Assembly: GCA_947095585.1 (NCBI GenBank)
Contig: OX352761.1
Location: 85,241,919-85,305,918 of the forward strand
Reading direction: 5' to 3'
Origin: Nephrocerus scutellatus
Taxonomy: Eukaryota > Arthropoda > Insecta > Diptera > Pipunculidae
Length of the DNA stretch: 64,000 nucleotides
Both the position numbers and the translations under genes were made by a program. Below the pieces are notes generated by a model. That model saw nothing but the letters and a program-made list of their open reading frames with translations, ran no database searches and was not told the origin of the DNA. This document shows positions 9,076 to 44,284 of this stretch, piece after piece (the stretch's first letter is position 1; each line of letters opens with the position of its first letter).

Positions 9076-9099
9076 GTATGTTTGGTACAACATTTGAAA

Positions 9100-9789
9100 T
9101 CTATATATATAAAAATGAATCGTGGTTTGTTCGGATGGTTAAAACTTGAAAACGGCTTGATCAAATTGGATACTTCCTTCTGCGAGTTTGTTCGTAATTG
9201 CTACGCGAATGTTGTAGAGTTGGTTCAGCCACGCTAGATGGCGTTGGTATCGTTTTTTTTTCCTGAAAATTCTTATTTATGGAACGATTTGGCTCAAATT
9301 CACACCATATAATATTTAAATAAAAAGAAAGTCGTTGGACCCGATAGGTGGCGCTGGTGTCGTTTTTTTTCCCCGAAAATTCTTATTTATGGAACGATTT
9401 GGCTCAAATTCACACCATATAATATTTAAATAAAAAGAAAGTCGTGGACAAAATTTGGACCCGATAGGTGGCGCTGGGGTGGAAAATGTAGTTTTCCCTG
9501 TATATAATTTTTATATAAAGAATATTCCAACAAGTGTAAATTTTTTGCCTGTATAAGTGTCGATTCTATAGTTTTTTGGATTGGTGAGTTGGTAAGTTAT
9601 TGGGGTGTAAGTAGGCGTGGCGTCAGTGGGCGGGAGGTCAGTCGGATGGCGCAGCCGGGAAACGCGAGTGTAAGTGGTCGTGGCGGGAGGTCAGTGGGCG
9701 GGGGTCAGTGGGACGGGCCAGCCGGGAATCGCGGGCGTAAGTGGGCGTGGCGTCAGTGGGCTGGTAGCAAAGCGCCCGGGAACAGCTAG
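9100..9789 (+). mobile_element. non-autonomous Helitron, 690 bp
   Basis: Starts TCTATATATATAAAAATG directly after A and ends with a GC-rich CCCGGG palindrome followed by CTAG, next to T: the A|T insertion, 5' TC, hairpin and CTRR end of Helitrons. Inside are two copies of a roughly 120-bp unit (from about 9240 and 9360, each containing GGAACGATTTGGCTC) and a G-rich segment of GTGGGCG-type repeats at 9590-9780. No Rep-helicase coding. It lies only 24 bp inside intron 5, right behind the donor. Confidence 0.8.
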
Positions 9790-9950
9790 TAGCCTATGAA
9801 TTTCTCATCCCTCATAAAACAAACTTTACTTACATTCTGGTTATAATTAGCACCTAATACGATTAATTTTTTTTGTAATTTCTCACTAATCTCTACATAA
9901 ATACTAGTTATATAAATAATTAATTAAAAAAAGTAAAAATATATTTCTGC

Positions 9951-10065
9951 ATCGTAGGTATTAAGGTAATCGTAACCAAAATGTAATATGGTTAATATGT
10001 GGAATGGCCTGGCCCACCTTCTATATTTTGGTTATAATTTCCACCTAATACTATGCAGAAATAAA
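9951..10065. repeat. imperfect foldback repeat
   Basis: The left arm (ATTTCTGCATCGTAGGTATT...) and right arm (...ACCTAATACTATGCAGAAAT) are inverted copies with about 20 bp of loop, and related half-arms occur near 9826 and 10270. It looks like a small MITE remnant. The rest of 9790-10894 is AT-rich with no gene seen; a second small inverted repeat (AAAGTAAAATTTT / AAAATTTTACTTT) lies at about 10140-10195. Confidence 0.6.
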
Positions 10066-10894
10066 TGTTCAATTAAATATTTATATAATTTCTCATTCAT
10101 TTGTAAAAAATCCAATATTAATTATTGTCTGTTACTCAACCTAAAGTAAAATTTTCATTGCGAATGACAGATGATAAAATTTTACTTTACCAGACGAAAA
10201 TTTAAATTGCATTTATTTACATATGGGTGAGAAATATAAAACTAATTAACTAAAAAGTATAAATAATGTATTTCTACATATTTATATGTGCTAATTATAA
10301 CCAATGCAAGTATGTATGAGGCGTGCCCTACTCCAAAAGAAATTACGTATTTATAAGGAGGTGCACTTAAGTATAATATAAATATATAAAATATTAAAAA
10401 GTTAAAAATATTTCCTAAAGCCATTACTAGTCTTTTAAGCGTAATTCAAGAGCATGTTGTTATGTAAGAGAAACTGCTCGACCGCAGAACTTTTAAAAAA
10501 GGAAATCGAACACGAAAGGCGAAAATCTTTTGTTTACATTTTTTTGTTGCATGTGTTGTTGTTGTTGCTAGTATAAAGAGGGGTAAATCTCCCAAAATAT
10601 CAAGAGCTGTTTTAGCTCTACGGTAGAGTCGTTTTGAAGGGGAAACGAACAACTTGACAGCCAAAAAAAATCTGGGGCAGAGTTTTACGAAAAAAAATTA
10701 ACATAAAATTAAACTAAAATACTTTATTTTCAAACATCTTGCTACAAGTCCTACTATACCAGTCGTCTGTCCATTGTCATCCTTCATGCCCAATGAGATT
10801 TAGATTAGATTTATTATTATTTATTTTTTTATTAGATTTATTTAATTTAACAATAAATATAATACTTAAAAAATTTAAAAATTTAAAAAGCGGA

Positions 10895-13790
10895 ATTTTA
10901 TTTCATATGGCTTAGAGTGATGGTACAAGGGCGCAGCATTCACTACTGCTTTCTTTAAAGCAGCCCCAACTTTGAGTTTCAACTCTTTACGAGTTGGATG
11001 CACTGTCTGATTCAATTGCAGGAACTGTCATAAATAATGATAACACTGAAATCGTTATTGCGGGCGATTTCAATTAACACAATTTTGGGTGCCACAACAC
11101 CCGTAGGAAGGGATGTTGAGTTGTTCGCTGAGTTTAATCACCTTACTCAGCTTGTAAATTAGCCTACAAGAATAACTGACATTGCAAATCATTCCGCGAG
11201 CTCCATTGAGTTGTTCCTTACCTCTCGTCCTGATAATTACTCCGTCAATGTATTATCGCCTATAGACTCGTCTGACCATTGTGTTGTATAAGCTAATTTT
11301 TCGTTAATTAACCACGCAGTTAGAGAAAAAAAACTCCCAAAAAACAGTCTGGGAATACGAGAAAGCCAATTGGGACGGCCTTAACAACTTCTATGGGAAA
11401 ATTAACTGGTCGCTATTGTTTCGTGATAGCAACGTGGATGCCGCCGCTGATGCCATCACAAACATCATCATCAGTTGTAAAGAGGCTTCTAGGATTAGAA
11501 GGGTATGCTTTCGGTTTCACAAAGCAAAACCTACTGTGGAAAACCGAACAAATTTTAAACGGGACTGCCTTAACAAATTCTTTGGATGGTATGACTCAAG
11601 TTGTACAGAGGCTTCTAGGATTAGAAGGGTATGCTTTCGGTTTCACAAAGCAAAACCTACTGTGGAAAACCGACCAATTTTAAACGGGACTGCCTTAACA
11701 ACTTCTTTGGGAAAATTAACTGGTCGCTATTGTTTCGTGATAGCAACGTGGATACCGCCGCTGATGCAATCACAAACATCATCCTTATTGGTATGAGAGA
11801 CTTTATTCCTTCCAGGAATAAGTCTGTCAAACTAAAGGAGAATGGATGGTATGACTGAAGCTGTAAAGAGGCTTCTAGGATTAGAAAGGTATGCTTTCGG
11901 TTTTACAAAGCAAACCCTACTGTGGAAAACCGAACTAATTTTAAACGAGCCAGAAATGATTACAATGCTCATCTTCGGCGAATCAATTTCACCTACGACC
12001 AAAAATTGAGGCAAAAGATACTACAATGTCTCTTAAGGTGGTAAAAATCTTTGGTAATTCGTGAAAAGAATAAAAAATACAGGCTCGTCGTAAATTCCAA
12101 CGCTCATTTATAATGACACCTCAGTTGTCAATTCTAAAGACAAAGCCAATCTGTTTGCTACACATTTTGCAGCTAGCTCAACGCTTCTAGATTGTTGATT
12201 CATGCCGCCTGCACGTCCGAGTATTGAACACTATGGGACAGATCTTCATTCGTACTCGTGCTGCAGTTGCTAGAGTTTTAAGCGATCTCAACACACACAA
12301 ATCCGCTGGGACAGATGGTATTTCCCCATTAGCTCTGAAGAGGTATTCTTCGAAGCTGACATTACCATTGTGTAAGCTTTTATATCTGTCCTATTCTTTT
12401 GAATTCTTCCCGAGAAGTTGAAAAACAGTCTTTGTCCAGCCCATACCCAAAAAAGGCGAGCCTTCGTCTCCTTCTTCGTAGCGACCCATAGCACTAACAT
12501 CAATTTTTTCCAAGGTTATGGAAACGCTGATTAATTTTCATTTCATGAAATATCTTAAAACCAATGAAATCCTTAGTGACCAGCAGTACGGATTTCGTGG
12601 GCAACGTTCCACTGGTGAATTTATGGTATATCTCACCGAACAGTGGAACCGGTCTTTGTATCAATTTGGTGAAAGCAAAGCTGTTGTACTCGATATTTCC
12701 AAAGCATTTGACAGAGTTTAGCATCAAGCTCTTTTGTTCAAAGTGCGTGCTTATAGATTCGATGAAAAACTGCTTTATTGGACTAGAAGCTACCTTTTGG
12801 ACGGAATCTTTAGTGACCAGCAGTACGGATTTCGTGGGCAACGTTCCACTAGTGATTTTATGGTATATCTCACCGAACAGTGGAACCGGTCTTTTCATCA
12901 ATTTGGTGAAAGCAAATCTGTTGTACTCGATATTTCCAAAGCATTTGACAGAGTTAAGCATCAAGCTCTTTTGTCCAAAGTGCGTGCTTATAGATTCGAT
13001 GAAAAACTGCTTCATTGGATTAAAAGCTATCTTTTGGACGGAATTCTTAGTGACCAGCAGTACGGATTTCGTGGGCAATATTCCACTGGTGATATTATGG
13101 TATATCTCACCGAACAGTGGAACCGGTCTTTGCATCAATTTGGTGAAAGCAAAGCTGTTGCACTCGATATTTCTAAGGCATTTGACAGAAATTGGCATCA
13201 AGCTCTTTTGTCAAAAATGCGTGCCTTTGGTGTCGATGATAAACTGCTTCATTGGATTAGAAGCTATCTTTTGGACCGCTCAATTCAAGTTGTTTTGGAC
13301 GTTTTCAAGTCTGAAATACACCACATAAATGCTGGCGTTCCCCAGGGCTCTGTTCTGTCTTATTAATGATCTCTTATCTGTGACTTCTAATCCAATCCAC
13401 TCCTTCGCTGACGACAGCACTCTCAGCTTCTCATATAAGTTTAAGGAACGTCCCACCACATCTCATGTGGAACTCAAACAACTTCGTATGTTAAGCACGT
13501 TAAACTCTGACCTAGACAGCATAATACAATCAATCGAGTAGAATTTAACGCTTCCAAAACCCAATGATGTCTCCTGCCGTCAAAGCGAATCCTTAACCCC
13601 ATGCCATTATCCATGAATGGCACTTGCATCGAGGAAACTGAAAATCTCGCAATTCTCGGTATGTTCGTTAACGACAAGCTTCGTTGGAATGACTTCCTTA
13701 ACGCCTTAACGCCCACGCTGTGCCAAGCATATAGCCGAGCATTATAAGGGTGCGAAACCCTTGAAGCGTGCGCGAATTATAAAAAAAAAA
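10895..13790 (+). pseudogene. Jockey-like LINE copy A, ORF2 with internal duplications
   Basis: Decayed ORF2 of a non-LTR retrotransposon. It is 5' truncated within the endonuclease (a GDFN-type motif near 11065) and continues into reverse transcriptase with SAGTDGISPL (about 12300), QYGFRGQRST (12590), DISKAFDR (12690) and FADDSTLSFS, the catalytic ADD box, near 13400. It ends in a poly(A) run at 13781-13790. Many stops and frameshifts. Two duplications are present: a roughly 260-bp stretch of the pre-RT region is repeated between 11388 and 11950, and a 237-bp RT segment is present three times (12575-13285). Six further copies of the family are in this window. Confidence 0.88.
12575..13285 (+). 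repeat. triplicated 237-bp RT segment
   Basis: The segment beginning at SDQQYGFRGQ occurs at 12575, 12812 and 13049, exactly 237 bp (79 codons) apart each time, so frame is kept across repeats. The copies differ at scattered sites (for example GQRSTGEF / GQRSTSDF / GQYSTGDI). The third copy continues into the normal downstream RT. Confidence 0.9.
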
Positions 13791-15310
13791 GCCAATCTGT
13801 TGGCTGCACATTTTGCAGCTAGCTCAACGCTTCCAGATTGTGCATTCATGCCTCCAACACCCCCGAGTATTGAACACTCTATGGGACAGATCTTCATTCG
13901 TACTCGTGCAGTTGCTAGAGTTGTAAACGATCTCAACATTCACAAATCCGCTGGGCCAGATGGTATTTCCCTATTAGTTCTAAAGAGGTGTTCTTCCAAG
14001 CTGGCATTACCATTGCGTAAGCTTTTCCATCTATCCTATTCTTCTGGAATCTTCCCGAAAAGTTGGAAAACAGCCTTTGTCCAGCCCATACCCAAAAAAG
14101 GTGAACCGTCGTCTCCTTCTTAGTACCGACCCATAGCACTTACATCCATTCTTTCCAAGGTCCTGGAAACGCTGATCAATTTTCAGCTCATGAAATATCT
14201 TGAAACCAATGAAATCCTTAGTGACCGGCAGTACGGATTTTGTGGGCAACGTTCCACTGGTGATTTGATGGTATATCTCACCGAATAGTGGAACCGGTCT
14301 TTGCATCAATTTGGTGAAAGCAAAGCTGTTGTACTTGATATTTCCAAGCATTTGACAGAGTTTAGCATCAAGCTCTTTTGTCCAAAGTGCGTGCTTATAG
14401 ATTCGATGAAAAACTGCTTCATTGGATAAGAAGCTATCTTTTGGACAGCTCAATTCAAGTTGTATTGGGCGGTTTTAAGTTTGAAATACATCACATAAAT
14501 GCTGGCGTGCCCCAGGGCTCTGTTTTGTCCCCGACACTCTTTCTTATTTTTATTAATGATATCTTATCTGTGACTTCAAATCCAATTCACTTCTTCTCAT
14601 ATAAGTTTAAGGAACGTCCCTCCTCTTCTTTTGTGGATCTGAAACAACTACATATGTTTAGCACGTAAAATTCTGACCTAGACCGCATAATAAAATGGGG
14701 ACGCTTCCGAAACCCAATGCTGTCTGCTGTCATCTAAGCGAATCCCAAATCCCATACCGTTATCCATGAATGGCCTTGCATCGAGGAAACTCGCAATTCT
14801 CGGTATGTGCGTTAACGACAAGCTTCGTCGGAATGACCACATATTTACCGTCGCCAAAAATGCTACGAAATGTTTAGGTTTTCTAACCCAGTGCAAGAAA
14901 AATTTTACTCCCTCGGAACTGGCTACTATCTACAAGGCTTTTATTCGCCCTATTATATAATTATATAATATAATTGAGTATAATTGTCAGCGGTGCTCAA
15001 GAGAAATAGCTAGTTGCATGTCATTTCTCCGTGAATTGCACCGCAATACTCGTGGCGCTCTAAATGCTCATCAGTTTACCCTTATGACCATCTTCGGACG
15101 TAAAGTTAAGTTCAATGATTCGTTCTTCAGCCGGACAACACGTATGTGGCATGCTCTGCCAAGCTCTGTCTTTCCACATCACTATGATCCACAGGCATTC
15201 AAAACACAAGCTCGTAGACATCTCCTCTTTTCTTCTCCTTTTCCAAGCATATATCCGAGCATAATAAGAGTGCAAACACCTTTTCGCGTGCGCAAATTAT
15301 AAAAAAAAAA
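13791..15310 (+). pseudogene. Jockey-like LINE copy B, head-to-tail with copy A
   Basis: Begins abruptly in mid-ORF2 immediately after the poly(A) of copy A (GCCAATCTGT, matching position 12143 of copy A) and runs through RT (SAGPDGISLL, the AGVPQGSVLSPTL block near 14505) to the C-terminal region and a poly(A) at 15301-15310. It lacks the triplication. A deletion near 14590 removes the catalytic ADD box, and several stops break the frame. Confidence 0.87.
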
Positions 15311-17110: not shown

Positions 17111-17760
17111 TCAACTAGTGGGTCTGTTGATCAAATTTTTGCTTTCACAGTGTCTTGATGAAATTGAAATTGGAGTAGATACTCTTTCTATGCCAGTGCC
17201 ACTATCAACAACAATTTTTCAAAAATCACAGTAAGCATCAGAAACATCATTGGATAGTTCCAGTGCCAGATCAACCCGTTCATCTATATATCCCCTTTTT
17301 AAATTCTCTTTATTAACTTCGCTCGCCCGTGGCTGGCGGACTGGCTGACTGGCTGGCTGGCTGGTCAGATCTTGTGATCAATTTTTAACCCACTTCCCAA
17401 AGCCAAATTTTATTGAAATTTTGCACTCGTGTATATTTCCGGTGACAATACTTTCTATTAGAGAGTGATCGGGCCACGGGGTCCGGGGGCTCCCATACAA
17501 ATTGTTTTTCCCGGCATTAGATCATTTCATACTATAATGACTGTATTCTGTGTGCGTTTGATCGCTGTGCGCTGTGGGCAGCGCATCTTGCTTTACGATT
17601 GGGGTTGTTTTGTTGTTGGATTGCAGTACTTCGTGTGTATTTTAATATTTCAGCATTTATGGTGGAGTTCAGTATAGTTTTGGTTATAAGAGAATTTACA
17701 TGAAAAATTTTATGGGTTGTTTTTATTTCATCCTCCTCGTCGCTACATAAAAGCTCTTCG

Positions 17761-19439: not shown

Positions 19440-20861
19440 TACTCGTAGATAGATAGTTTCTCTATTGAGTTTTAAGTATTGTCATATTATTCGTTCTTCT
19501 AATGTGGCGTGGCATAGTGTTCCACAAGCGAGCTGAATTTAAAAAAAAAAATACGTTCAGATATCGTAGATCTTTTCATAAAGATTGGTGAGGTAAAAAG
19601 ACTAAGCGTACGATATTTTAAAAGATTATCGAGCGTCATGCCGTAAAGACGAGAGATATAATTAGATACATGATCAAATGGTCGTAAACCAAAGACATAT
19701 CTTAATATGGCATTAAAGCAACATTTTGTTTCCTCTTACGTAGATACGTAGCAGCAATTGCAGTAAATTTCGCAACCATATGTAAGGACTGGTACAGCTT
19801 ATGTTTTTGCCAGTACAATTTTAGTTTTAAAAGTGGTGAAAGAACGTGGCCCACAAAGTACGAAGCCAAGTCACGACTAAAGGTCATCCCAAGATTTTTA
19901 ACCTTTTTAACATAATCTATTGGGGTGTTATTTAATGTGATTACAGAAAAATATGATAGATCCAACTGCTGCTTAGAGATGACTATGCATTTAGATTTGT
20001 TAGCATTTAGCATTAGACCATTACGATTTGACCATAGCGCTATCTTTGATAGATCCTCATTTATACAACTCACAGTATGCTCGATTAAGCCCAGCGGAAA
20101 ACTTAGAACGAGCTGAGTATCATCAGCGTACATATGAAGTGAACAGTGCCTTACAATAGATGGGACTTCATTTACAAACATGGAAAATAATAATGGTCCT
20201 AAAATGGATCCCTAAGGAACTCCACTGGTTTTAGGGAGAAAGTCTGAGAGGACCTTATTAATTTCGACTGCCTGAAATCTGTTTGTCAGATATGAAGATA
20301 TCAAATTCACAGCGATAGGTTCGAAATTGTAATGTCGAGATAGCTTTTGGCATAGAGTTGAGTGGTCGACAGTATCAAACGCTTTAGAAAAATCTAGTAG
20401 TACGAGCAATGAGACTTTTCCCTCACCTGATATGCCTTTTACGGCTGTTATGCAGCTATGTTTCTGCCGGAATCCAGATTGCTTAGGCGTTAAGATGTTA
20501 TGAGTGGAGAGGAATTGACTTATTTGTTTTTGTATTGTTTTTTCAAACATTTTGGATATAAATGGGATAATGGAGATTGGTCTAAACTCATCCCCTTTAG
20601 GTGTTTTGAGGACAGGCAGTACTTTTGCATGTTTCCAATTTGTAGGAAAAATACTTGTTGTCACCACTGCATTAAAGATGTACAAATATAGGGTAACACT
20701 ACTGGTAAGATGATTTTTAAAAAAGATGGGTGATTGAAGTGTAGTTTATACAACTTACAACATGTAGTTTATGAGGTAGAAAATTGAGTGTTGTTAATTC
20801 AGTGTCAGTGACACTGTCTGAAACTTTACAGATATCTCCTTGACTACTTTCTTTATTTATT
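19440..20861 (-). pseudogene. CR1-like LINE, RT and C-terminal region
   Basis: On the minus strand, RT motifs appear in order: FRPISIIPFISKMFEK (about 20600), GFRQKHSCITAV, LLDFSKAFDTVDHS (about 20390), SGVP-stop-GSILGPLLF, and the catalytic MYADDTQLVLSF (about 20125). The C-terminal conserved region (CFNAILRYVFGLRPFDHVSN) runs on to about 19475. One in-frame TAG replaces the Gln of VPQGS at 20212, and a frameshift lies upstream of 20690. Otherwise well preserved over 400 codons. It differs clearly from the Jockey-like family found elsewhere in the window. Confidence 0.85.
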
Positions 20862-21645
20862 AAATTTTCTATATTAACTTCACTTGCCCGTGGCACGGAT
20901 GTCGGTCGGCAGTCGGACGTCTGTCGTGGAATCTTGCGATCAATTTTTAACCCACTTTCCAAAGCCCGATTTTATTGAAATTTTGCACACATGTGTTTTT
21001 CCGGAGACAACACTTTCTATTAAAATTTGAGTCCCCTCGGGCCATGGGGTCGGTGGGCTCCCCTACAAATATTTTACAAAATTTTACTCGATTTTCTTCA
21101 AATTTATTACACATGTGTATCTTCGACAGACAAAACTTTTTGTAAAAAATTTGGTGACCCCAAGCCCCGAGGTCGTGGGTCTCCCAAATTTTTTTTTAAA
21201 AAAAAATAACCCGATTTTCTTCAAATTTTATATATGTACGTATGTATCTCCGATGAAAAACACTGACCCCGGGCCCCAGGGTCATTGGGCCCCAATAAAT
21301 TTTTTAAAAAACTTAACCTTAACAAAAATTTTGGTGGCCGGGGTAAACATTTTTCAAAAAAATTAACCCGATTTTCTTCAAATTTTATATACAAGTGTAT
21401 CTCCGATGGACAAAACTTTTTGTAAGTTTGTTGGAGTGATCGGGCCCTGACCCCGTGTGGTGTCCATGTAAATTTTTTAAAAATTAGCGCGGTTTTCTTC
21501 AACCCATCTCATATTAAAGAATTTACATGAAAAATGGTATTTTTATGGGTTGTTTTTTTTCTATGGAGAGTGCGAGAAACTTTGAAAATTAATGCGACTT
21601 ACTCTTTGTTTGCGTGTCTTATTTAGTTCTAATTTATTGAATCAC
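20862..21645 (+). repeat. modular arm with ~120-bp units, copy 2
   Basis: Starts AATTTTCTATATTAACTTCA, CTTGCCCGTGG and continues into several units of the form CCCGATTTTCTTCAAATTT ... TGTGTATCTCCGATGGACAA ... CTTTTTGTAA ... GGGCCC, ending with the TTTTTATGGGTTGTTTTT block and CTCTTTGTTTGCGTGTC. Homologous to the left arm at 17298 and to 24780-25778. No inverted partner arm lies nearby. Confidence 0.8.
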
Positions 21646-22382
21646 ACTGGAAACCAGAAATAGTCTCGGGTTTGAAGAATAGGTGTCTTTTAGAATCAAG
21701 GATTTTTAAGCACTTATTCTTACTGTGGCTTCCTTAATCCTACCAGCTGCCAATTGCTTTGGTGTTATACGATTATTCTGTTTTATTATATTTATTTCTA
21801 CTAATTTATATTAATTGTTACAAATTGCTTTGTAATATATGTTATAAAATATATGGAATATCCTACCGGCTGCGCGAAAATTGTTACACTATATCTGTAA
21901 GTGGGTGTGTCGTGTGTTGTGTTAATATATATGTTTTAATATATTTAATTATGTTAACACGGGCCAAGATTCTTAATGTGGCCGATAATGTGTGTTAAAT
22001 TTTGATATATGTAGAAGTGTATATATATGTGTAGGCTGGCAGGAATACTCAACGTCAATGTACCGTAATAAATTGATTTTTCTAAGACTGGCAGGATTGC
22101 CATGTAATAATAGGATTATTCTCGGTCCTATACTAATTGTATTTAAACTGGCAGGATCGCCATGTAATAATTGTTATATAATTTTAACAATTTTACTGTA
22201 ACTAACTGGAACTATTGGGGGAATAAGTTGCGATATCTGAACTCGTCCGGCGTGTTGCTTAACAAACGTTGACCAAAAAGCAAGCTGCTCTGTAGGGCGT
22301 CAGATATCGGAGAAATAATTATAGTTCGTTGATTAGAAGTCCCATTGTTTTCTGCACCAGCCAAAGTGGGATCTCATTTGAA
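21646..22382. other. AT-rich spacer with CTGGCAGGA direct repeats
   Basis: Three CTGGCAGGA-type segments (22036, 22089, 22149), the last two followed by ...CGCCATGTAATAAT or the like, and a GC-richer stretch at 22210-22380. It may be part of a decayed LTR, but no pair was found. Confidence 0.35.
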
Positions 22383-23560: not shown

Positions 23561-24160
23561 GTTAGTTTGATCCTCCGATAAGTTTTTCGGTAGGTGGTTT
23601 TTTTATAATTCTAGCACGCGTAAAGGTGTTCGCACCCTTATAATGCTCGGCTATATGCATGGCACAGCGTGTGCGTTAAGGAAAAGGAGAAGAAAAGAGG
23701 AGATGTCTATGAGCTTGTGCCATGAATGCTTGTGGATCATAGAGATGTGGAAAGACAGAGCTTGGCAGAGCATTCCACATACGTGTTGTACAGCTGAAAA
23801 ATGAATCTCTGAACTTAACTGTACCTACGAAGCTCGGCTGAAAGGTAAACTGATGAGCATTTAAAGCGCTACGAGTAATGCGGTTGAATTCAAGGAGAGG
23901 TAGCATGCAACTGGCTATTTCTCGTGAGCATCGCTGGTTGAAGAAACGATAAACAGGTGGTGCTGGAGTCGAGATGCCATCACGCCTAAAGGACGTCAAC
24001 ATGTTTAAACCACTGGACTTATCGAAGCCATAATCACACTATATGTTCGGTAGGTTTATGTTTCTGAAGCTGGTAGGTGGCACATAAATCGAGACATCAT
24101 GTCCAAACCACTAAACGTATCGAGGCCATATTCACACCATAAGTTATCTTTTTTGAGACC
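23471..24160 (+). mobile_element. Helitron-like 5' part interrupted by a LINE 3' end
   Basis: Begins TCTATATATAAAAATGATTG right after the CTAG of the preceding block. The text CTAAACCACTGGACGTATCG ... CCATATTCGCACC recurs three times (23523, 24003, 24097), showing internal repeats. At 23601-24002 it contains a minus-strand LINE 3' end. The 3' terminus of the element was not found. Confidence 0.55.
23601..24002 (-). pseudogene. Jockey-like LINE 3' end (400-bp insertion)
   Basis: A run of T (reverse-strand poly(A)) at 23601-23607 is followed by AATTCTAGCACGCG and, on the minus strand, the C-terminal ORF2 segment (RITRSALNAHQFTFQPSF; RDSFFSCTTRMWNALPSSVF). Same family as copies A and F, heavily 5' truncated. 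Helitron-like sequence on both sides suggests insertion into it. Confidence 0.8.
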
Positions 24161-26399: not shown

Positions 26400-26401
26400 T
26401 T

Positions 26402-26945: not shown

Positions 26946-27242
26946 ATACAAATTTAATTCAGGGTAAATACAAAAAAAAAATTTTTTTTATTATATAAAA
27001 AAAAAACAAAAACAAAACACAACAAGACAAAATCGAAAATTTTTATTATTCGTATATAATTTCTATATATATATATATTCTTATAATTGGTATCCTGTAA
27101 AGTGTAAAGGGTTATTCTCGTTCGCGTAAGTTTCGCTCAGTAATTTTTCAAAATTTTTACGCGTAATCGTTTAAGGACAGTTAACCTGTTCGAAGAGTTA
27201 CCTTTTCAGTGCTATCCCTTTTTGACTCCTAACACTCCTACA

Positions 27243-28253: not shown

Positions 28254-31200
28254 TATTTCATTTTGTGCGCAATACAAAGAACCTATCATAAAAATTAAAT
28301 TTAGACCATCTGAAAAAAGATATCTAAATTTATTAATCGATACAGGCGCTCAGGTTAGTCTTTTAAAAAATTCAGCTGCTTTAATAAATCTGCTTAACAA
28401 CTCACCGAAAAAACAAAAGTGCACTATATCAACGATTGCCGGTGATCGTATGGACACTCTTGGCACAATTTTCGTTTCAATAGAATTCGATTCAGATGCA
28501 GAATTTATTTCTTTTAAGCACACTTTTCATGTTTTAACCAACAATGTTCATTTACATTACGATGGTATATTAGGAAACGACTTTTTGACTAAATATGGGT
28601 GTAAAATTGATTATTTCAAACAAAATTTAGGCTTTAATTTAAAACATGACGCTATTTATACAATAAAAAACCAAACTCCAGCAAATATAGGTCCAAATCA
28701 ACCTAAAAATTTTCAAAATAATGAAATAAAATTCTTACTTGATAAAAGTGTACTACCTACGGGTGATCGTAAAAATCGGTATGAAAGCACATCAAAAGTG
28801 GACGAATGCCACAACTATCACGATACTATAGCTTACTAGCAACGATCTACCACCTTAAAAAATCAGAATAAAACCGCTTTTGGAAATCAAAATCTTAAGA
28901 AAAATGATAACCGTAACACAACTTCATACGACGCAATTGTTTCTGAGCAGCGCTTTGTGACCCTAAAACCTAGGTGTGAACAACTAACAGAAATCCCATT
29001 CCCCTACAAAAAAGACGCTATAATATAAGCAAGTTAGTCCTGACGTTTATCTGGCAGAGACATTGGTAAGACCAGAACAAGAAAAGGTAAAAATTTTGTT
29101 AATGAACACATCGGAAAAAGACATTAAAATCAATTTAAATGAACTTAAATATGAATGGAATGCATTAGACGCTTTCGACGTTATTGAAATGGATGCCTCT
29201 AAAGACCCAATAAAGAAAAGGTTATTAAAATTAGAGTCAATGCTGAATTTAGATCACTGTAATGAAGAAGAAAATAAGTCAATTAAAAATATATGCCGTA
29301 AATATAATGACATATTTTTTTTGGAAGGTGATCATCTAAGTTATACTGACAGAACTAAACACCGAATTATTACGAATTCTGAAGCACCGATTTTTATAAA
29401 GCCCTACAGATTACCTGAATCCCAGAAGGAAGAGATACAACACCAAGTTAAAGAAATGTTGAACGATAACATTATAAAACCCAGTTGCAGCCTTTGGAAT
29501 TCACCACTTCTACTTGTGCCCAAGAAACCAGATAGCAATGGTAAAAAACGTTGGAGGGTGGTTGTTGACTTCAGGAAACTGAATAACATAACTATCGGTG
29601 ATAGTTATCCACTACCAAACATAACCGATATATTGGATCAATTAGGCAGAGCAAAATACTTTAGTACACTGGACCTAGCCAATGGGTTTCACCAGATAAA
29701 AGTGGATGAAAGAGATCAGGAGAAAACAGCTTTCAGTACTCCTTTTGGCCATTACGAGTACAATAGTATGCCTTTCGGTCTCAAAAATGCACCGGCTACT
29801 TTTCAGCGCACAATGAATAATGTTTTAATTGGACTACAGGGTATGATCTTAAGGAACACAACGAGAAATTGTTAAAAATATTTAACAAACTGCGAAGCAA
29901 TAGTCTGAAACTGCAACCCGAGAAATGTAATTTTATTAAAAGAGAGTTATTAAAGCCCCAGTTTTAGCTTACCCCCATTTCAGTAAAGAATTCTTAATAA
30001 CAACTGATGCAAGCGATTTTGCCTTGGGAGCAGTCCTTTCACAAGGAAAAATAGGAGAAGACCGAGCGATCTGTTTTAGCAGCCGAACAATGAATTTAGC
30101 AGAAACAAGGTACAGCACTACAGAAAAAGAATTGTTAGCCATAGTATACGCAGTAAAACAATTCCGACCTTACATATATGGCCGCAAATTTTCGATAATC
30201 ACAGACCATCGACCTTTAGAATGGCTATTAAACTTAAAGGATCCTACATCAAGACTTGCTCGTTGGAGAATCCTATTAGACGAATATGACTATGAAATTT
30301 TATACAAACCTGGTAAATACAATGCTAATGCGGATGCTCTTAGTCGTATAAAGGAAAGTGAAATAGAAGGCAATAACGTGATGGTTTTAACCAGATCTCA
30401 TGCTAAAAAGCAACGAATTCTTTCGGAAAAGGTAAATGAGGATAACAATTTTGGAAATAGCTCCGAAACGAACAGAAACAATCAAAATTTTAGAATAATA
30501 GAAAAAAGAAAGACGATCTTCGCCAACAACGACCCAGAACCAAAGATAATAATTTTACCTTTAGTATCGTCACCTGACGAATTTATTCTTAAAACCCTTG
30601 ATGAAAAGTTTATTAAACCTTCCATAGCACAAACAGATTTTTTTTGCACTACTTTACCCATACCCTTTCGAACAAACACAGACAAAAATACGACTAAAGC
30701 GACACTAAAGGCGATTTACGACATTCTTATGTAAAAAGACTATCGTAAAATCGAGTTTTCAATTCCCAAACTTGAATTTGAAGCCAAAAATGAGTTTAAA
30801 AATTTATTAGAAGACATATATTGCAACCAGAGTGCTGACATTTTTCTTTTTATTGATGACACCATACATTAACATGACGATAAAGACATTTTAGAGATTT
30901 TAATACAATATCATGCCTCACAACTCGGAGGACACCAAGGCATCCAACAAACATTAAAACGCATAAAATCTAAATATTATTGGCCTACAATGAACTCAGA
31001 CATTAAAAATTACATTAAAAAGTGCACCTCTTGCCAACTAAATAAAAGCAAACGAAATCCACCCATACCAATGAAACTTACAACAACGAGCTCCACACCT
31101 TTTGAAAGAATAACACTAGATATAGTAGGACCCCTACCCTTAAGTCACAACGGAAATAAATACATCTTAACATTTCAAGATGACCTAACAAAATATTCAG

Positions 31201-31545
31201 AGGCATACCCGTTACCAAATGCAGAAGCGCCCACCTTAGCTCGAATTTTTGTAGAAAACACGGTTTGTAGACACGGTATACCATTAACAATTCTGACTGA
31301 CCAAGGCACGAACTTTTTGAGTAATTTATTTAAGGAAGTATGTAAACTCCTTAAGGTTAGAAAAATTAACACAACCCCCAAACTAACGGAGCGCTAGAAC
31401 GAAGTCACCGTACCTTAGCAGAATTCCTTAGGCATTATGTTAATAAAGATCCATTAACTTGGGACACATGGATTCCTTATGCCATGTTTGTATACAATAC
31501 CACAACCCAAAAATTTAACGAGAAAAACCCTTTATAATTAATCGT
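28240..31545 (+). pseudogene. Ty3 Pol: protease, RT, RNase H, integrase; several deletions
   Basis: Protease with LLIDTGAQVS (about 28333) to 28839; a stop-rich gap to 29063; RT palm start (WRVVVDFRKLN, FSTLDLANGFHQI, MPFGLKNAPATFQR) to about 29840. There a deletion removes the YVDD catalytic box, the text jumping to a YDLKEHNEKL-like sequence in a new frame. A second, larger deletion near 29955 removes the thumb/connection. RNase H (LITTDASDFALGAVLSQ, TDHRPLEWLL) follows from about 29990. The integrase has an HHCC region (CTSCQLNKSK near 31023), LDIVGPL and ILTDQGTNF; a frameshift near 31375 precedes the glutamate region and the C-terminal domain is missing after 31540. Cannot supply function in cis. 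Confidence 0.9.
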
Positions 31546-31954
31546 AATTATAAGATAAAACTACATATATATATGTGATTTCATCTAAAAAAAAATCACA
31601 ATAAATTAGTATTTTTTAGCCTTTACTATCATATTATATATATATTATAAATTAACTATTTTAAACATAATAATATTATATTACTACATTCACTTATAAA
31701 AAAAAAAATTTTTTTAAGCTTTGAAAAAAAAAAGAAGAAAATAAAATTATTGTAATTACAAATTATTTTTTGTAAGAATTTTGTGCATTTAACCCATTTA
31801 TACATATACAATAATAAACAAATTTGTACGCCAACCAGTATTCTCAAATCAGTGGTTTTTTCTGGTATTCTTATAACGACAAATCACCGCGGCAAGTTCA
31901 TTCCTGTTTAACGAAAATTTTTACCTACTCCTGGTAAAGAATTTTCTTATTCGT

Positions 31955-31966
31955 AGGGGGAAGGGA
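31955..31966 (+). promoter_or_regulatory. polypurine tract
   Basis: AGGGGGAAGGGA immediately before the TG of the 3' LTR, the usual plus-strand primer of LTR elements. The 400 bp before it (31546-31954) are AT-rich without coding sequence. Confidence 0.88.
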
Positions 31967-32678
31967 TGTTGTGACCGGCACAACTATTCGATCCCTGACC
32001 ACACACTCGCTGCACTCTACCCACATCTGCTTTTCATAAATTACTTATTTTATGATCGGCACAGCCTGTCACATTGCCAGTACATTCGTGTACCGAATTT
32101 TCGAATTCACATCCACCACTAATCTGCAGAGTACGTACGGATGGCTGGTGTTTGTAATAAGAAACCGATCGAGATACGATAAAGGCATTTTTGATCCTTT
32201 ATTCATCTCGAGTTTCGAGCACAGCACGCAGCTCATAAATGCCGATACGATACCGAGAAATAGTTGGTGCACATGCAGATATTACGAAATAGTAATATCA
32301 GCAGGAGGGCAACTTTAAGGCGACCGTTAAGTGGCTCGACTGAAGAAGGGAAACAGATGTCGCAGGCCGACTGTGTGTGTTCTATGCTTGCACTTGTATT
32401 TGTGTATTGAACCCTTGTTCATGCACACGATGCTGTCGTTCCATTGGTGGATCGCAACCAACCAATCATATTGGTTGGTCGATCCATCCAAAATATTATA
32501 AAAGACCACTGATACGATTACTAAGGGCGGCAGTTGAAACCAATAAACAGAACTAATAGTAATAAGTGAAAAGAATAATAAAATAATAATAAATAAGGTA
32601 TTATTTGAATCTTAAAACTAACTTTTCGTGTTTTTGTTAATTATCAACGCGCACGGTGCACGGTGTCTAAACGTAACA
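31967..32678 (+). repeat. 3' LTR, complete (712 bp)
   Basis: Starts TGTTGTGACCGG and ends CGTAACA (TG...CA). TATAAAAG at 32498-32505. Directly abuts the second copy of the 1.2-kb composite block. Confidence 0.93.
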
Positions 32679-33893
32679 AATCCTAGAGAGAGAGTTTCCC
32701 AGTGACTACGGCTCGTAAGCCAAATAAAACCGCTGTTGTTCCTTCTGAGTTCTAAGACCAAGTCCGTTTTATTGAAGAATTGTTTCACTATTTATAGTAG
32801 TTAGAAGACTCAAATACATATAGATAATATGAATATAATACAAATATCTACAAATACAAATATATGGACCCTATATCCCATATTGCGCTTGTCAGCATCA
32901 TTACATTACAGTGGAGTAATAGACCGAATACTTACGAATATGTTGTCACATACCGAGAATGGCGAGTTTTTCAGTTTTCCGTTGCAACATTGTGTTTTGG
33001 AAGCTTTAAACTCTACTCTATTATCTTCTTCCCATTTTATTATGCTGTCTACGTTAGAATTTAACGTGCTTAACTTACATAGTTGTTTGAGTTCTACATG
33101 TGAGGATGAGGGACGTTCCTCAAACTTATATGAGAAGCTTAGAGTGTTGTCACCGGCGAAAGAGTGACTTGGATTAGAAATCACAGACAAGAGATCATTA
33201 AAAAAGAGGATGAGGGTTGGGGAACGCCAGCATTTAAGCGATGGATTTCAGACTTGAAATCGTCCAAAACGACTTGAATTTGGCTGTCCAGAAGATAATT
33301 TCTAATCCAATGAAGCGGGTTTTAATCGACATAGGAATGCATTTTGTTTCAAAGAGCTTGATGCCAAACTCTGTCAAATTCCTTAGAGATATTGAGTGCA
33401 AAGACTTTGCTTTCACCACATGATGAATACACTGGTTCCACTGTTCGGTAAGATATGCCATGAAATCACCAGTAGAACGTTGGGCACGATATCCGTACTC
33501 CCGGTCACTAAGGATTTCGTTAGTTCTAAGATATTTAATGAGCTGATAATTAATAAGTGTTATGGGTCGGAACGAGGATAGATACGACAGCTTGCCTTTT
33601 TTTGGTGTAGGCTGGCCAAAGGATGTTTTCAACTTCTTGGAAAGAGTCCAGAAGAATAGGATGGGGTTGGGGTCTAAGTGGATTAAGATGGTGTAGGGTC
33701 AGTGGTAGTTAGGATGGGGTAGGGGACTAAGTGGATTAAGATGGTGTAGGGTCAGTGGTAGTTAGTGGGTAGTTAGTGAGGGTAGCCGGGAAACCCCGGG
33801 TATTTCCGCTAGTCTATATATAAAAATGATTGTGCATTTGTATGTAATTGCGCAACGCCTAAACCACTGGACGTATCGAAGCCATATTCGCAC
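32679..33893. repeat. 1.2-kb composite block, copy 2
   Basis: Near-identical to 22383-23560, in the same orientation about 10.3 kb away, with one extra tandem copy of a roughly 60-bp G-rich segment (GGATGGGG...GTGGTAGTTA, 33660-33770). It ends CTAG (33809-33812) followed by TCTATATATAAAAATG. Identity stops near 33893, where a modular-arm repeat begins. Confidence 0.85.
32906..33660 (-). pseudogene. Jockey-like LINE copy D (RT fragment in block 2)
   Basis: Same RT fragment as copy C (PTPKKGKLSYLSSFRPITLI; SDREYGYRAQRSTGDFMAYL; FAGDNTLSFS). Slightly better preserved: the YGYRAQRSTGDF block is readable here and scrambled in copy C. Shares the Gly-for-Asp change in the catalytic box, so the two copies descend from one already dead fragment. 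Confidence 0.82.
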
Positions 33894-34130
33894 CCATACA
33901 AATTTTATAAAAAAGTACCCGATTTTCTTCAAATTTTGTACGCATGTGTATCTCCGATGGACAACACTTTTTGTAAAAATTTGGAAGTGAAATGGCCCGG
34001 TCGGTGAACTCTCTAACAAAATTTTAAAAAAAATTTCCGATTTTATTCAAACTGCACATTGTGTATTCCCGATTAGAGAATTAACACGAAAAATTTTAAT
34101 TTTTATGGGTTGTTTTATTCTGGCCATAAG
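33894..34130 (+). repeat. modular-arm fragment, copy 4
   Basis: Two units with CCCGATTTTCTTCAAATTTT, GTGTATCTCCGATGGACAAC and a GAATTAACACGAAAAATTTT...TGGGTTGTTTTA terminal block, as in the other arms. Confidence 0.75.
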
Positions 34131-36560: not shown

Positions 36561-36879
36561 ATAAGCTGCAGCAAAGGCTGCTTATGACACATCATGCTAA
36601 TTGTACACCAAGCTTTGGCGTCTATCCTTTTCCATGTCACCAACTTTGTCGCATTATCTGCACTACCAATTGTTGGTTTGGTATCCGTACTGCCCACCGA
36701 ACAACTCACCGGCCTCAAGCACTTGACGAATTACAAATTTTCACGTCAGTCAATTTGAGCCGCTTTCGAGCTTCTCGATGTTCATACGGTCACTTTCCAT
36801 TTTGTACTAATTTGTTTAGCAAATACAGATTTGATTTTTACAAAATTCGAGACAGAAATCTATTTGTCCAGAACCATTT

Positions 36880-37230
36880 TTTTACAAATATTCGCACAAG
36901 ATCGAAACTATCCTTTCCTGAAAATCAACGAATCGATTTTCACAAAAATCTGCACTGGACAACCATTTTTGTAAAAATTTGGTAGTGATCGGGGCCGGGG
37001 TCGGGGGCGCCCATTCAAATTTGAAAAAAAAGTACCAGATTTTCTTCAAATTGTATACGCATGTGTATCTTCGATGGACAACACTTTTTGTAAAAATTTG
37101 GAAGTGGCCCATACAAATTTTATAAAAAAAAATACCCGATTTTCTTCAAATTTTATATACATATGTATCTCCGATGGACAACACTATTTGTAAAAATTTT
37201 GGAGTGATCGGGATTTTTAAAAATTTACCC
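36880..37230 (+). repeat. modular-arm fragment, copy 5
   Basis: At least three units with GATTTTCTTCAAATT...ATGTGTATCTTCGATGGACA and ACTTTTTGTAAAAATTTGG. 36560-36880 between Copia and this array has no clear feature. Confidence 0.7.
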
Positions 37231-37974
37231 GATTTTATTTAAGGTTATGGTGGCTGTCAGTGGAAAAATTATTTAACGTGACTTGACCCATTTTTGTCTG
37301 TATTTTCGACTACTTTGAGGTTCTTTTAAACCACCTTCCACACGACCTAGAGATTTTGTGAGTGTCCAAGTCCCGATTAGCATTTTTTATATTCCGCGTG
37401 TGACGTCATTTTCCCGTTTTTTTGAGGTCCCTTTTTTAAATGTTTATTTTTTATACAGGGTGTTCGGGTTTGGGTTCATTCTGAGAAAAAAAATCGAATG
37501 GGAGGGGGGTCAATTTTTGATATCCTTTGAGATGCAGGGTGTTTCAATATTGTTGTTCAGAAAAACATCACACAAATATTAAACTGTAACATTCAAAATA
37601 TTTATCGGAGAGCAACCAACTTAAGTCTTATTTGACTGGTAATTGTATAGGCTAATTTAAGATCTAAGTGGTTATCTTGCATCTTGATGCTTTAAAGTAG
37701 AAAAATATGATTTTTTTATAAAATTTAATATTTCTCAAAAAAACCGTTATAATTTTTCATTTTTTTTTGACCTTATTTTAATTCGCCTTGATATTCTCTA
37801 CAACTCCTAATACAAAGTTTAGCTCGAGACTCCCGATTTATTGTGGTATAAAGGTTTGAATATGTGATAAAAACATTAACATTTTTAAATATTATATTAA
37901 TTAAAATTACTTCATCTTGTTATAAAAGATGCTCAAAATGTCCTCATTGTGATTGAATACAGGCTAACATTCGT

Positions 37975-38245: not shown

Positions 38246-38289
38246 CATCATCATCATCATATTTGGCTCTACAACCTGATTCGAGCCGA

Positions 38290-41076
38290 TGTCATCCAAT
38301 TTGGCATCCCTAAACTCTGAGCGTCCTGGTCTATGCCATTCTTCCAGCGTAGGCTTGGCCGGCCTCGCTGTCGTGTTCCATAAATCCTACCGCAAAAGAC
38401 TTTCCGAGCAGGATCCTCTTCGCTCATGCGAGTTAGGTGTCCTGCCCACCGGAGCCTACCGAGCTAAATTTTCTTCACGATGTCGACATCGCGGTAGACC
38501 TCATCATTATAAAGTCTCCGGAATCGTCTTTCCTCACATACGAGGCCAAAAATTCTCCGTAAGACTTTTCTCTCGAACGGGGCTAAGAGGTCAGAATGCT
38601 TTTTGCTACGCACCGAAGTCTCGGATCCATATGTAAGTACTGATTGGACCATTGTCTTATATACCAGTAGCTTGGATGTTTGGGTTAAATTCCTGGATTT
38701 GAAGAGTCTGGACTGACTATAGTAGGCTTTGTTGGCTTTAAGCAACCGTGCGCGTATTTCTGGATCCATTCTGTTATCGGCTGCTACAGTTCACCCGAGA
38801 TAGTTAAAGGATTGCACTACTTCAAATTCGCGCTCCACTATTTGATTTGAGGGTCCAATGTTAGATCTTCTACTCGCAGACGTGGCCACCATGTAGTTTG
38901 TTTTGCTCTCATTTATGTACAGCCCCAGACTTCCGCCTGCTCGATCTGGATGAAAGCTTCCTGTACAGCTCTTCGATTTCTACCAACGATGTCAATATCG
39001 ACTTATAGAGGATTGTGCCTCTCGCTGTTACGTCAGAGTCTCGGATCACTTTCTCCAACGCATGGTTGAAGAGGACGCAGGCCAGTCCATCCCCTTGTAG
39101 GCGCTTGTTATAGATGTTAAATGGGCTTGAAAGTGATCCGGATATTTTACTTGGCTTATAACATTGGTCATGGTCAACCTACATAGTCGTGTCAGTTTAT
39201 TTGGGATGCCGAATTCTCTCATGGCTTTATAAAGTTCTACTCCGGCTATGCTATCATAGGCGGCTTTAAAGTCTATGAAAAGATGGTGTAGTGAGTTTTG
39301 AAACTCTAGACATTTTTCCATCACCTGCATAAATCTGATCAGTTGTTGATTTGTCTGGGATGAAGCCACACTGGTATGGACCAATGATCCCTTTAGCGTA
39401 TGGGGCTATCCTGTCTTGAAGGCTAGAGGAGAAAATCTTATACGCGGTACTCAACAACGTTATACCACGATAATTGCTGGCCTCTTCGTCAGTCTTCCGT
39501 CATCGCTTCTTCCTCCCATACTTGCGCTATTATATCATGAATTGCTTGGTGTATTGCGTGACCTCCGGTTTTAATCAGCTTCGCTGGGATACCATCAGAT
39601 CCCGGGGCCTTATTATTTTTGAGCCGATTTATCGCTCTGCTTACTTCGTCTATACTTGGTGGCGGCATCATAGTGTCGTCTTCGGTCATTGCTGGAGCCT
39701 CCAATTCCTCAGTTAGCTGGCCATTAAGCAACTCATGAAAGTGCTCTTCCCATCGCTCTAAGATGCCTTTGAGATCGGCAATCAGATTACCCTCTTTGTC
39801 TTTGCATTATGTGCAACGCGCTGTATATTGCGTCATACCGCGGACTCTTTATACTGTTCTAGTTCACGGACGTGATTCTTCTCCCAGGCTGCTTTCTTTT
39901 TCCGGTGAACTGTTTTCGATATCTTCTGAGCTCTTTATATTCATCTTCGGATGCCCGCGTTCTATGATATTGTTGCATTGCTCGGTACGCAACATTCTTA
40001 CGTTCAGCCGCTAGCTTACATTCGTCATCGAACCAGTCGTTCCGATCTCTACGACTACTGCCTAAGATGGAGTCAGCAGTACTAATGACAGTATTCTTAA
40101 GGCGTGTCCATTTCTCTTCTACTCCCGGCATCTCAGCCCCAGGACCTACTCTTCCTGCATTTAGGGCGAGTCCTATCGCTTGGTCGTAGTTTTTCTCCGT
40201 GTTGACTCGAATTTTATTTGCGGATGCCGTCTTTCTTGATGATGCAATCGGCGCTCGGAGCACCATACCAACAAGATAGTGGTCCGAGTCGACGTTGGCG
40301 TTCGGGTTGTGACGGCGGTCTATTAACACGTGGTCTATTTGGTTGCGAGTGGCTCCATTAGGAGATACCCAGGTGGCTTTGTGGATATTTTTACGCGCAA
40401 ACCTTGTACTCGCAACGACCAAATTATTGCTTGCTGCCATCTTTATGACTTGTTGTCCATTGTCATTAGTGTTCTTGTGTAAGCTATGGGTGCCAATGTA
40501 CTGCCTAAATACTGGCTCCCTACCTATTTTGGCATTCATATCCCCCAGAATGATTTTTAAGTCATACTGAGGACTGGCATGGAGTTCCCGTTCTACTGAT
40601 TCGAATTCTTCTTTTTAATCAACTGGGGAATCCTCTGTAGGTGCGTGAACGTTTATGAGGCTTATGGTTTTAAATCTGCCCCGCACGCGATGGGTGCATA
40701 GCCGTTAATTTACTGCTTTAAAGCCGATAACTATGGGTTTCATTCTTTTGCTGACTAGAAACTCCACCCCGAGCACATGATGTCTTGCATGACAGCTGTA
40801 ATATATGTCTTATTCTGATTTTTGTAAGACACCATTCCCCGTATATCGCATCTCCTGAATTGCTGTTATGTCAGCATTATATTTGGACGGGGTATCGGCT
40901 AGCTGCTGTGCAGCTCGGGCTCTATACAGTGAGCGTACATTCCATGAGAAAATTCTTAAATCGTTTAGCCGTTTTCGTTGCCGTGGTCGTCGTCGTTCAT
41001 CAGTGTATCCGAGGCTGATTTTGGGTTCCGTAATATGGTTTAATATGGCAAGTACAAGATCCAACATTGGTCCCAC
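38290..41076 (-). pseudogene. RTE-like ORF: endonuclease, RT, C-terminal region
   Basis: Minus strand: endonuclease start (LRIFSWNVRSLYRA, AIQEMRYTG) at 41000-40830; endonuclease end (DFNAKIGREPVF-like, NLVVASTRF, HKATWVSPNGATRNQIDHVL and SDHYLVG) at 40540-40250; RT start (NNKAPGSDGIPAKL, about 39600), GPYQCGFIPDKSTTDQI (39375), LFIDFKAAYDSI (39260); C-terminal YKTMVQSVLTYGSET and ERKVLRRIFG (38650-38540). This is the 'craniofacial development protein 2-like' endonuclease type that annotations often mislabel as a host gene. Several frameshifts; the RT catalytic box falls in a damaged stretch. Confidence 0.85.
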
Positions 41077-41732
41077 AATTCAAATAGTGGAGCGCGAATT
41101 TGAAGTAGTGCAATCCTTTAACTATCTCGGGTCAACTGTAGCAGCCGACAACAGCATGGAACCAGAAATACGCGCATATACGGTTGCTTAAAGCTAACAA
41201 AGCCTACTATAGTCTGTCAAGACTTTTGAAATCCAGGAACTTAACCATAACATCCAAGCTGCTGATATATAAGACAATGGTCTTACCAGTACTTACATAT
41301 GGATCCGAGACTTGAGTGCTTAGCAAACAGCATTCTGACCTCTTAGCCGCGTTCGAGAGAAAAGTCTTACGGAGAATTGTTGGCCCGTATGTGAGGAAGG
41401 GCGATTCCGGAGACTCTGTAATGATGAGATCTACGAGCTTTACCGCGATGACGACATTGTGAAGGAAATTAAGCTCGGTAGGACACCTAGCTCGCATGAG
41501 CGAAGACCCTGCTCGGAAAGTCCTTTGCGGTAGGATTTATGGAACACGACAGCGAGGCCGGCCAAGCCTACGCTTTTCCCAATAATTTCGCTTTTCCTGT
41601 ACTGGAGGAAAATTAGCTACGGCCACCACGTGGAGGTTTGATCGCACTTCCACCAGTCAGAGATAGTTGCGGCCACATGCATTTCTGAAGCATTCTGTGT
41701 TATTCGCCCTACTCTGCTGATGGCTGACCGCC
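41050..41732 (+). pseudogene. inverted copy of the RTE 3' coding region
   Basis: Plus strand: IVEREFEVVQSFNYLGSTVA, MEPEIRA, LLKANKAYYSLSRLLKSRNL and YKTMVLPVLTYGSET, corresponding to minus-strand 38885-38470. After about 41580 the 3' sequence differs from that of the other arm. Confidence 0.85.
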
Positions 41733-41744
41733 GGTAATATGAAT

Positions 41745-42180: not shown

Positions 42181-42785
42181 CATTGCGAGCTCGTGATGCA
42201 TTACCATAGCAAAATCCATAAAAAAAGATGGATATCAACGTGCTCCTCACCTGAAAAATATGCCACCATTAAGACAAAAGACACAGCTTACTCAAAAGAA
42301 GACATTGCTTAATCAACAAAAGATACTGCTTACTCATCAATAATCGCCACATAAGAGTACCGAAGCAGAGACAGTAACCGCACACAAAATATCTAATACG
42401 AGTATTAAGCGTTAGCCAGATGCATAACGCCAGTGACCAACGGTTTTATCTGGTGTTTTTTTTTGCGTTTTTTTCGCTCGGGTTTTTATGCCATCTTTAA
42501 CGAATATTAGCCTGTATTCAATCACATTTGAGCATCTTTTATAACTACATAAAGTAATTTTAATTTTTTTTTACTTTAAAGCATCATAGCTCTCAAACGG
42601 ATGCAGATACATGATAACGGCTTAGTTCTCCTTATTAGCCCATACAATTACCAGTCAAATAAAACTAGGTTGTTTGCTCGCCGATATTTTGGAAGTTACA
42701 GTTTAATATTAGTGTCTATTTTTTTCTGAACATTTTTTAAACACCCTGCAAATCAAAGGATATCAGAAATTGAACCCCCTCTCAG

Positions 42786-43500
42786 GAGAAAAGAGGAGAT
42801 GTCTATGAGGGGTTTGCACCCTTATAATGCTTAGCACAGCTTGGGCGTTAGGAAATTAGGGAGAGGAAATGATGAGATGTCTATGCACGCTTATCTTAAA
42901 CGACTGCAGATTATAAAAATGCGGAAATACAGGATCAGGCAAATCATTCCATATAACTATCGTGGTAAGGAAGGAATTAATGGTGGACCCGTGAGCTCGA
43001 TTTGAGGCACGGGTATTAGGGTTGGCTTGGAGAATGGCGGGATGCATCTGGATATTTCTTTTGAACACCGCTTGTGGAAAAAGCGACAAAACAGTGACAG
43101 GCAGGAAACATGCCTACGATGTTCAAGCGATTCGATTATTTTCGCGATATGTTTCACCAATAAGTTTTAACGCGCGGTGCTGAACTCTGTCAAGTAGATG
43201 CAATGTGGTCTTGGGGGCACCTGCCCAGACAATAAAGTTGTATTCAAGTTTAGGGCGAATATACGCCTTGTAAATAGTAGCCAGGTCTGAAGGAGTGAAG
43301 TAAGTTTTGAATGTCGTTGGTTCATAGTGAGGTGGAAAGACAGAGCTTGGCAGAGCATTCCACATACGTGTTGTACGGCCGAAGATGGGCTTGAGGGTAA
43401 AATGATGAGCATTAAAACTCCACGAGTATTGCAGTTGAATTCAAGGAGAGGTGGCATAAAACGGGCTATTTCTCTTAAGCATCGCTGGTGAAAGAAGCTA
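42786..43500 (-). pseudogene. Jockey-like LINE copy E (C-terminal pieces)
   Basis: Minus strand, two overlapping C-terminal ORF2 pieces: 43160-42800 (SLFCRFFHKRCSKEISRCIP) and 43500-43150 (RIFALNLNTTLLSGQVPPRP; NALPSSVFPPHYEPTTF). The order is scrambled relative to copy F, so this is two fragments or an internal rearrangement. Confidence 0.72.
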
Positions 43501-43559
43501 TAAAATAATATGTAAAAGGCTTCTATAATCTGAAAAACCTATATAGATCAAGTAAAAAT

Positions 43560-43875
43560 TAAATTTCAAAACTTTTACTTTCGTGAGCGCCGAGGATAAG
43601 TGCATAGCTTCCGAGCACTGAGGGGTTCGTGGTTCGAATCTCAGTAACACCAAAAAGTATTTTTCACCGTGTCCGACCTCTCGCGAATGTCTTACAAACG
43701 CCCGAGAGTAATAACATGTCACGGAAAGCCTCTCAATTCACCTTTCGGATACGGCGTTAAATTGTAGGTCCCCTTCCATTAGTGTGCAAAAAAAAAACAT
43801 GCACAACACAAATGGTCGCGAGAAGCTAGGCCTTGGACCGCAACGGTCTGTCGCGCCGGCTATTATTATTAATAT
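43560..43875 (+). mobile_element. tRNA-derived SINE
   Basis: A tRNA-like head containing a B box (GTGGTTCGAATCTCA, about 43630) preceded by a candidate A-box region (AAGTGCATAGCTTCCGAG), then a body with ACATGTCACGGAAAGCCTCT and a GGACCGCAACGGTCTGTCGC palindrome, ending in an ATT repeat (ATTATTATTA). No ORF. The tRNA of origin is not identified. 43876-44284 to exon 6 shows nothing further. Confidence 0.68.
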
Positions 43876-44284
43876 GTCGTAAAACAACATTCCAAATATT
43901 TTTGGATAGGTATTCGGGAGCAGTTTTTATCTTAAATTCGCCGTTCAGTAACTCTTACTTCACGTCACTTACTTTAAAATTATATACGTAATTACATTTT
44001 GAAAATATCTTATAATTCGAGAAACACAAAAGATCATGATTTACTGATAATTGAAGTTGATCAAAACTAATAACATATTAAGAAAAATTAATAATCGGTT
44101 TTACTTGGCTTGCATGCCTCCACTTGAATTATGTTTTTTGTTTTCAAAGAAGACGGAAGACAGGACGATTACAGTTGGGTTTAGATATAGATATGCATAC
44201 TTTAATGTATTGTAAGAATGTTTGTTTCTTGACATTTTTTATGCGTGTTAACTTAATTTTAAATAATTGTTTTTCTTCTTCCAG

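Follow-up and report, generated by a model that had tools for sequence, protein, structure and literature searches.

The sequence considered here is a stretch of 64,000 nucleotides from the pipunculid fly Nephrocerus scutellatus (contig OX352761.1, positions 85,241,919 to 85,305,918; hereafter the window, with position 1 as its first letter). It contains a complete almondex (amx)/TM2D3 gene in which four short introns are followed by a fifth of 35,209 bp, holding many transposon copies and placed inside a codon of the conserved DRF motif between the two TM2 helices. This is very probably an ordinary higher-fly almondex/TM2D3 gene, in which an intron that was already present has been enlarged by neutral transposon insertion and is spliced normally. 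The DNA evidence shows no new function for intron 5, which looks like the ordinary way that introns grow in repeat-rich fly genomes.

Gene structure and the split DRF codon

Reconstructed from the DNA, the gene model gives a complete frame from 8260 to 44420 on the plus strand, with six exons encoding 238 residues and a stop codon. Its parts, all on the plus strand, are listed here with the evidence for each.

8260-8353: exon 1, coding part from the ATG (spliced translation; dipteran almondex alignment from the first residues)
8413-8498: exon 2 (spliced translation, alignment, tblastn)
8554-8697: exon 3 (spliced translation, alignment, tblastn)
8754-8866: exon 4 (spliced translation, alignment, tblastn)
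8932-9075: exon 5, encoding the first TM2 helix and DRF as far as GAC AG (spliced translation, alignment, tblastn, Pfam TM2)
9076-44284: intron 5, 35,209 bp, GT-AG, phase 2 (spliced translation; donor and acceptor sequences)
44285-44420: exon 6, completing DRF and encoding the second TM2 helix, through the stop codon (spliced translation, alignment, tblastn)

Exons 1 to 5 sum to 581 nt, which puts intron 5 in phase 2; it cuts AG/G, and splicing restores the arginine of DRF. The coordinates, size, and phase that an earlier note on this DNA had assigned to the intron are right to the base by spliced translation, and its range of 55-65 bp for introns 1-4 agrees with measured lengths of 59, 55, 56, and 65 bp. 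All five introns have GT-AG ends, and an AATAAA follows exon 6 at 44431. When the whole protein was compared with the window by tblastn, each exon was matched once and everything else had an E value of at least 0.45, with no credible second copy of exon 6 in the window. The best other match within the exon 6 part is 16 residues at 50% identity (37230-37277, E 5.2), and a longer chance match covering part of exon 6 has 26% identity (36587-36883, E 1.8). The window is free of N.

A protein search in a large public collection returned 884 proteins at E ≤ 0.001, 120 of which were listed. Among those listed, the best match is almondex from the hoverfly Eupeodes corollae, with 68% identity over the full length (E 1.6e-109); the 120 carry the Pfam TM2 domain, and many are named almondex, others being hypothetical or without a name. 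In the Nephrocerus protein the TM2 match spans the exon 5/6 junction (residues 174-221, E 8.6e-15), and the N-terminal region shows a hydrophobic stretch. Full-length homology, the TM2 domain, and the alignment all point to the almondex/TM2D3 identity proposed in the earlier note, the preference for this name over TM2D1 or TM2D2 resting on the names of the best matches. The gene shares with known almondex/TM2D3 genes a cysteine-rich extracellular part, a TM2 domain, and DRF between the helices. A role for almondex in Notch signalling has been reported for Drosophila (PMC8714088, excerpt).

The same note held that the junction rejoins an invariant arginine, and in an alignment of the query with 20 sequences chosen from the 120 listed matches, DRF is indeed present in all 21 rows. 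The 44 residues that follow the split arginine in exon 6 (195-238) are identical in two relatives (P0002 and P0003), and the other rows differ at few positions. Given this identity and the invariance of DRF, a chance junction can be set aside. That the sequence beyond a 35-kb intron is so conserved suggests that exon 6 is under constraint and, most likely, that it still provides the C-terminal part of the translated almondex protein.

Splice sites and the manner of splicing

The donor of intron 5 reads CAG/GTATGT after 9075 and the acceptor reads TTTTTCTTCTTCCAG/GTT before 44285. Scored against donor and acceptor consensus sequences, the donor agrees at eight of nine positions (7, 7, 7, and 8 in introns 1-4), and the acceptor has 14 pyrimidines out of 15 followed by CAG (7, 9, 9, and 12 of 15 in introns 1-4). 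Since the acceptor is the most pyrimidine-rich of the five and the donor ties for best, the splice sites of intron 5 show, as far as their sequence indicates, no sign of weakness that would bear out the splicing liability which the earlier note raised as a possibility.

Removal of the intron in steps by recursive splicing would be compatible with normal splicing of an enlarged intron, and such splicing is described as common in fly introns longer than 40 kb (PMC6110457, excerpt), which is near the present length. However, the sense strand of intron 5 has no ratchet point of the form YAG/GTRAGT, where 100 Markov sequences contain 0.41 on average, and none that fits a looser pattern including a pyrimidine tract, where 0.58 are expected; weaker sites would be missed by these patterns. 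As the chance expectation is below one, this absence is weak evidence, and recursive splicing is considered quite improbable here. One donor-like site, MAGGTRAGT, occurs on the sense strand of the intron. The exon junction complex helps to splice large introns and to define neighbouring introns in Drosophila (PMC4197968, excerpt); by analogy, such a complex could be supplied in almondex by the four short upstream introns.

Repeat content of intron 5

The intron has 181 stop-to-stop pieces of at least 60 residues, and the 102 of them that reached 75 residues and passed a low-complexity filter were scanned with Pfam. Reverse transcriptase was matched by eight of these 102 (E ≤ 0.01), while single pieces match RNase H, integrase, protease, and gag (E 0.0016), and one matches Exo_endo_phos (E 5.7e-4). 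Together with comparison of the window to itself, these matches give the following larger features, among them retrotransposons with and without long terminal repeats (LTR and non-LTR).

9232-9752, no strand: repeat of tandem 110-bp and 67-bp units at the 5' end of the intron
10891-15309, plus strand: non-LTR retrotransposon copies, group A, with RVT_1 at 12722-13366
19702-20745, minus strand: second non-LTR group, with RVT_1 in two pieces and no match of at least 150 bases to group A on self-comparison
20921-25780, no strand: region of satellite-like repeats (units of about 120 bp), broken by a group A copy
22384-23953, minus strand: the group A copy that interrupts the satellite-like region
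about 25762-32655, plus strand: Ty3/gypsy-type LTR element with interrupted frames, in the order protease, reverse transcriptase, RNase H, integrase
32679-33894, minus strand: group A copy, 93% identical to 22384-23556 (self-comparison)
38346-41574, minus strand: probable third non-LTR element, between inverted arms (weak domain matches)
43013-43509, minus strand: group A fragment toward the intron's 3' end

When the two LTRs of the Ty3/gypsy-type element are aligned, 573 of 583 ungapped positions agree, and the alignment also contains a 32-base indel and two short gaps. The probable third non-LTR element has a reverse transcriptase-like piece at 39049-39405 (RVT_1, E 3.1e-4, short of the curated cut-off) and a weak endonuclease-like piece at 39862-40614 (E 0.036). 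Satellite-like units of about 120 bp recur near 33890-34119 and 36948-37242, and short dispersed repeats pair 17296-17502 with 20857-21070 and 37499-37684 with 42605-42784. A stretch near 43570-43850, judged by eye, presumably resembles a short interspersed nuclear element. Group A copies occur on both strands and also beyond the gene (49024-51313 and 62711-63703). The transposon make-up of the intron and the presence of elements on both strands were thus described correctly in the earlier note; its "at least ten kinds" is plausible, although about eight or nine classes were separated here, some of them weakly supported.

The group A reverse transcriptase frame contains three tandem 237-bp (79-codon) copies at 12568-13278, which are 89-95% identical to the first and may reflect either a genuine tandem duplication or an artefact of assembly. 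Other frames of this stretch (the plus and minus frames 12549-13325 and 12503-13210) gave matches to DPOA2_OB (E 7.8e-5), DEP (E 1.6e-4), and Hexapep_2 (E 0.0079), all below curated cut-offs; because they arise from a tandemly repeated reverse transcriptase sequence, they were rejected as signs of a nested host gene. Matches to SBF2 (E 0.035) and SIS (E 0.065) are also below cut-offs and were taken as chance. No host gene was found by Pfam among the scanned pieces of intron 5, and the window contains no tRNA gene and no Rfam family at gathering scores.

Origin of the intron and alternative explanations

The simplest reading is that intron 5 is an old intron of the TM2-coding region that was lost in Drosophila and has swollen here. 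The last almondex intron was probably already in place when repeated transposon insertion would have enlarged it to 35 kb, without selection for function. The polymerase would then read through the repeats, and the spliceosome would pair the donor at 9076 with the acceptor at 44284, joining 9075 to 44285 to give the standard protein. Expression of the gene as modelled would require that 35 kb of repeats, lying on both strands, be transcribed. In the mouse, exon 5 of Tm2d3 codes for a portion of the transmembrane domains, and its length is not divisible by three (PMC10684865, excerpt), a layout that fits an older intron in the TM2 region.

What the DNA shows is the reading frame, the sequences of the splice sites, the conservation of the protein, and the repeat content; transcription and splicing in this manner, the age of the intron, and the neutrality of its growth are inferred. 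In a search for relatives' DNA, 49 pattern matches in a genome contig collection and 19 in viral contigs yielded none that was confirmed, and a literature search found no paper on intron length in hoverflies. Some points weigh against this account. Self-repeat cover (blastn, E ≤ 1e-5, pieces of at least 60 bases), a measure to which a repeat contributes only if the window has another copy of it, is 0.396 for intron 5, so that by this measure more than half of the intron is not recognised as repeat. It is 0.384 for 44421-51791, 0.300 for 53335-64000, and 0.051 for 1-8259. The repeat load of the intron is therefore about that of the downstream intergenic DNA, and some repeat families are common to the intron and the DNA outside the gene, but with a cover of 5% upstream the likeness to the surroundings holds downstream only. 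Perhaps the elements in 1-8259 are ones without a second copy in the window.

One alternative is that the two parts are not one gene in the animal, either through misassembly or through a rearrangement that stranded exon 6 and broke the gene. The interval does hold long similar repeats of the kind that can mislead an assembler, including the group A copies that are 93% identical over 1.2 kb and the nearly identical LTRs. However, exon 6 has the expected order, strand, and phase, with sound splice sites, conserved coding, and the AATAAA behind it, and the window contains no credible rival exon 6 and no N; this alternative is very unlikely.

The intron might instead act as a regulatory switch, through retention or early polyadenylation, or as a source of small RNAs, namely endogenous small interfering RNAs (siRNAs) or Piwi-interacting RNAs. 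Reading on past exon 5 gives DRYVWYNI and then a stop, so either retention or early polyadenylation would end the protein there without the second TM2 helix, and AATAAA occurs at 9319 and 9429. Most introns soon read into a stop, however, and both AATAAA copies lie inside a tandem repeat (9235-9449). For small RNAs, which the earlier note also suggested, inverted repeat pairs are the only anatomical support and leave the idea a possibility; foremost are the arms 38346-38877 and 41048-41574, which match at 473 of 514 ungapped positions (41 mismatches, five gaps, longest perfect run 53). Their duplex energy is -864 kcal/mol, whereas 20 random pairs of 530 bases averaged -155 and went no lower than -222.5. 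Further inverted pairs are formed in the intron by elements on both strands, but inverted copies are expected when a few families insert in both orientations, and a switch or small-RNA role for the intron is very unlikely. The narrower proposal, in which the arms would pair with each other in the almondex pre-mRNA, forming long double-stranded stretches that yield siRNAs against active related elements, is less likely still, although if true it would tie almondex transcription to transposon defence.

Surroundings of the gene

Tail to tail with almondex lies an intact, compact TMUB1-like gene (53334-51792, minus strand), made of blocks with short gaps between them. Its protein is closest to those of Episyrphus (42%) and Eupeodes (39%), over 91% of the query, so that hoverflies supply its nearest named relatives as they do for almondex, and no solved structure matched the piece that was searched. 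The almondex and TMUB1 matches from Eupeodes corollae are both on sequences of 311,186,714 bases, which fits one chromosome and is not proof of adjacency. Farther downstream, 54789-55753 is an array resembling satellite DNA, with 143-bp and 287-bp units and about 6.7 copies of the short unit.

Upstream of almondex, an uninterrupted transposase frame of 363 residues with a DUF4817 helix-turn-helix occupies 4866-5957 on the plus strand. Its best match (P0154) is 98% identical, some other relatives are named DD41D transposase, and the element is possibly recently active. Part of another retroelement lies at 841-3033 on the minus strand, with an open frame that continues toward the window edge; its piece at 1594-3033 matches gag weakly (E 1.5e-4, short of the curated cut-off).

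Comparison with known systems

This gene is a clean further example of transposons enlarging one intron in a compact, conserved gene. Through it one could study the way in which a gene of the Notch pathway, needed maternally in Drosophila, deals with a repeat-rich intron of 35 kb, since almondex is described there as a single-exon gene; the present gene has five introns.

The emphasis that the earlier note placed on the oddness of the intron is not supported, as transposon-driven growth of some introns has been described in flies. On the F element of D. ananassae, a subset of introns is expanded, which is attributed mostly to transposons; in comparison with D. melanogaster the difference in median intron size is not significant, but that in total intron size is (PMC5555453, excerpt). 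There, as in almondex, some introns are hugely enlarged and others remain at about 60-70 bp (PMC5555453, excerpt). The present case differs in that it concerns one gene. The fertility genes of the Drosophila Y also have giant introns rich in repetitive DNA, including transposons, but those introns are described as megabase-scale (PMC13370334, excerpt), compared with 35 kb in the almondex gene of Nephrocerus.
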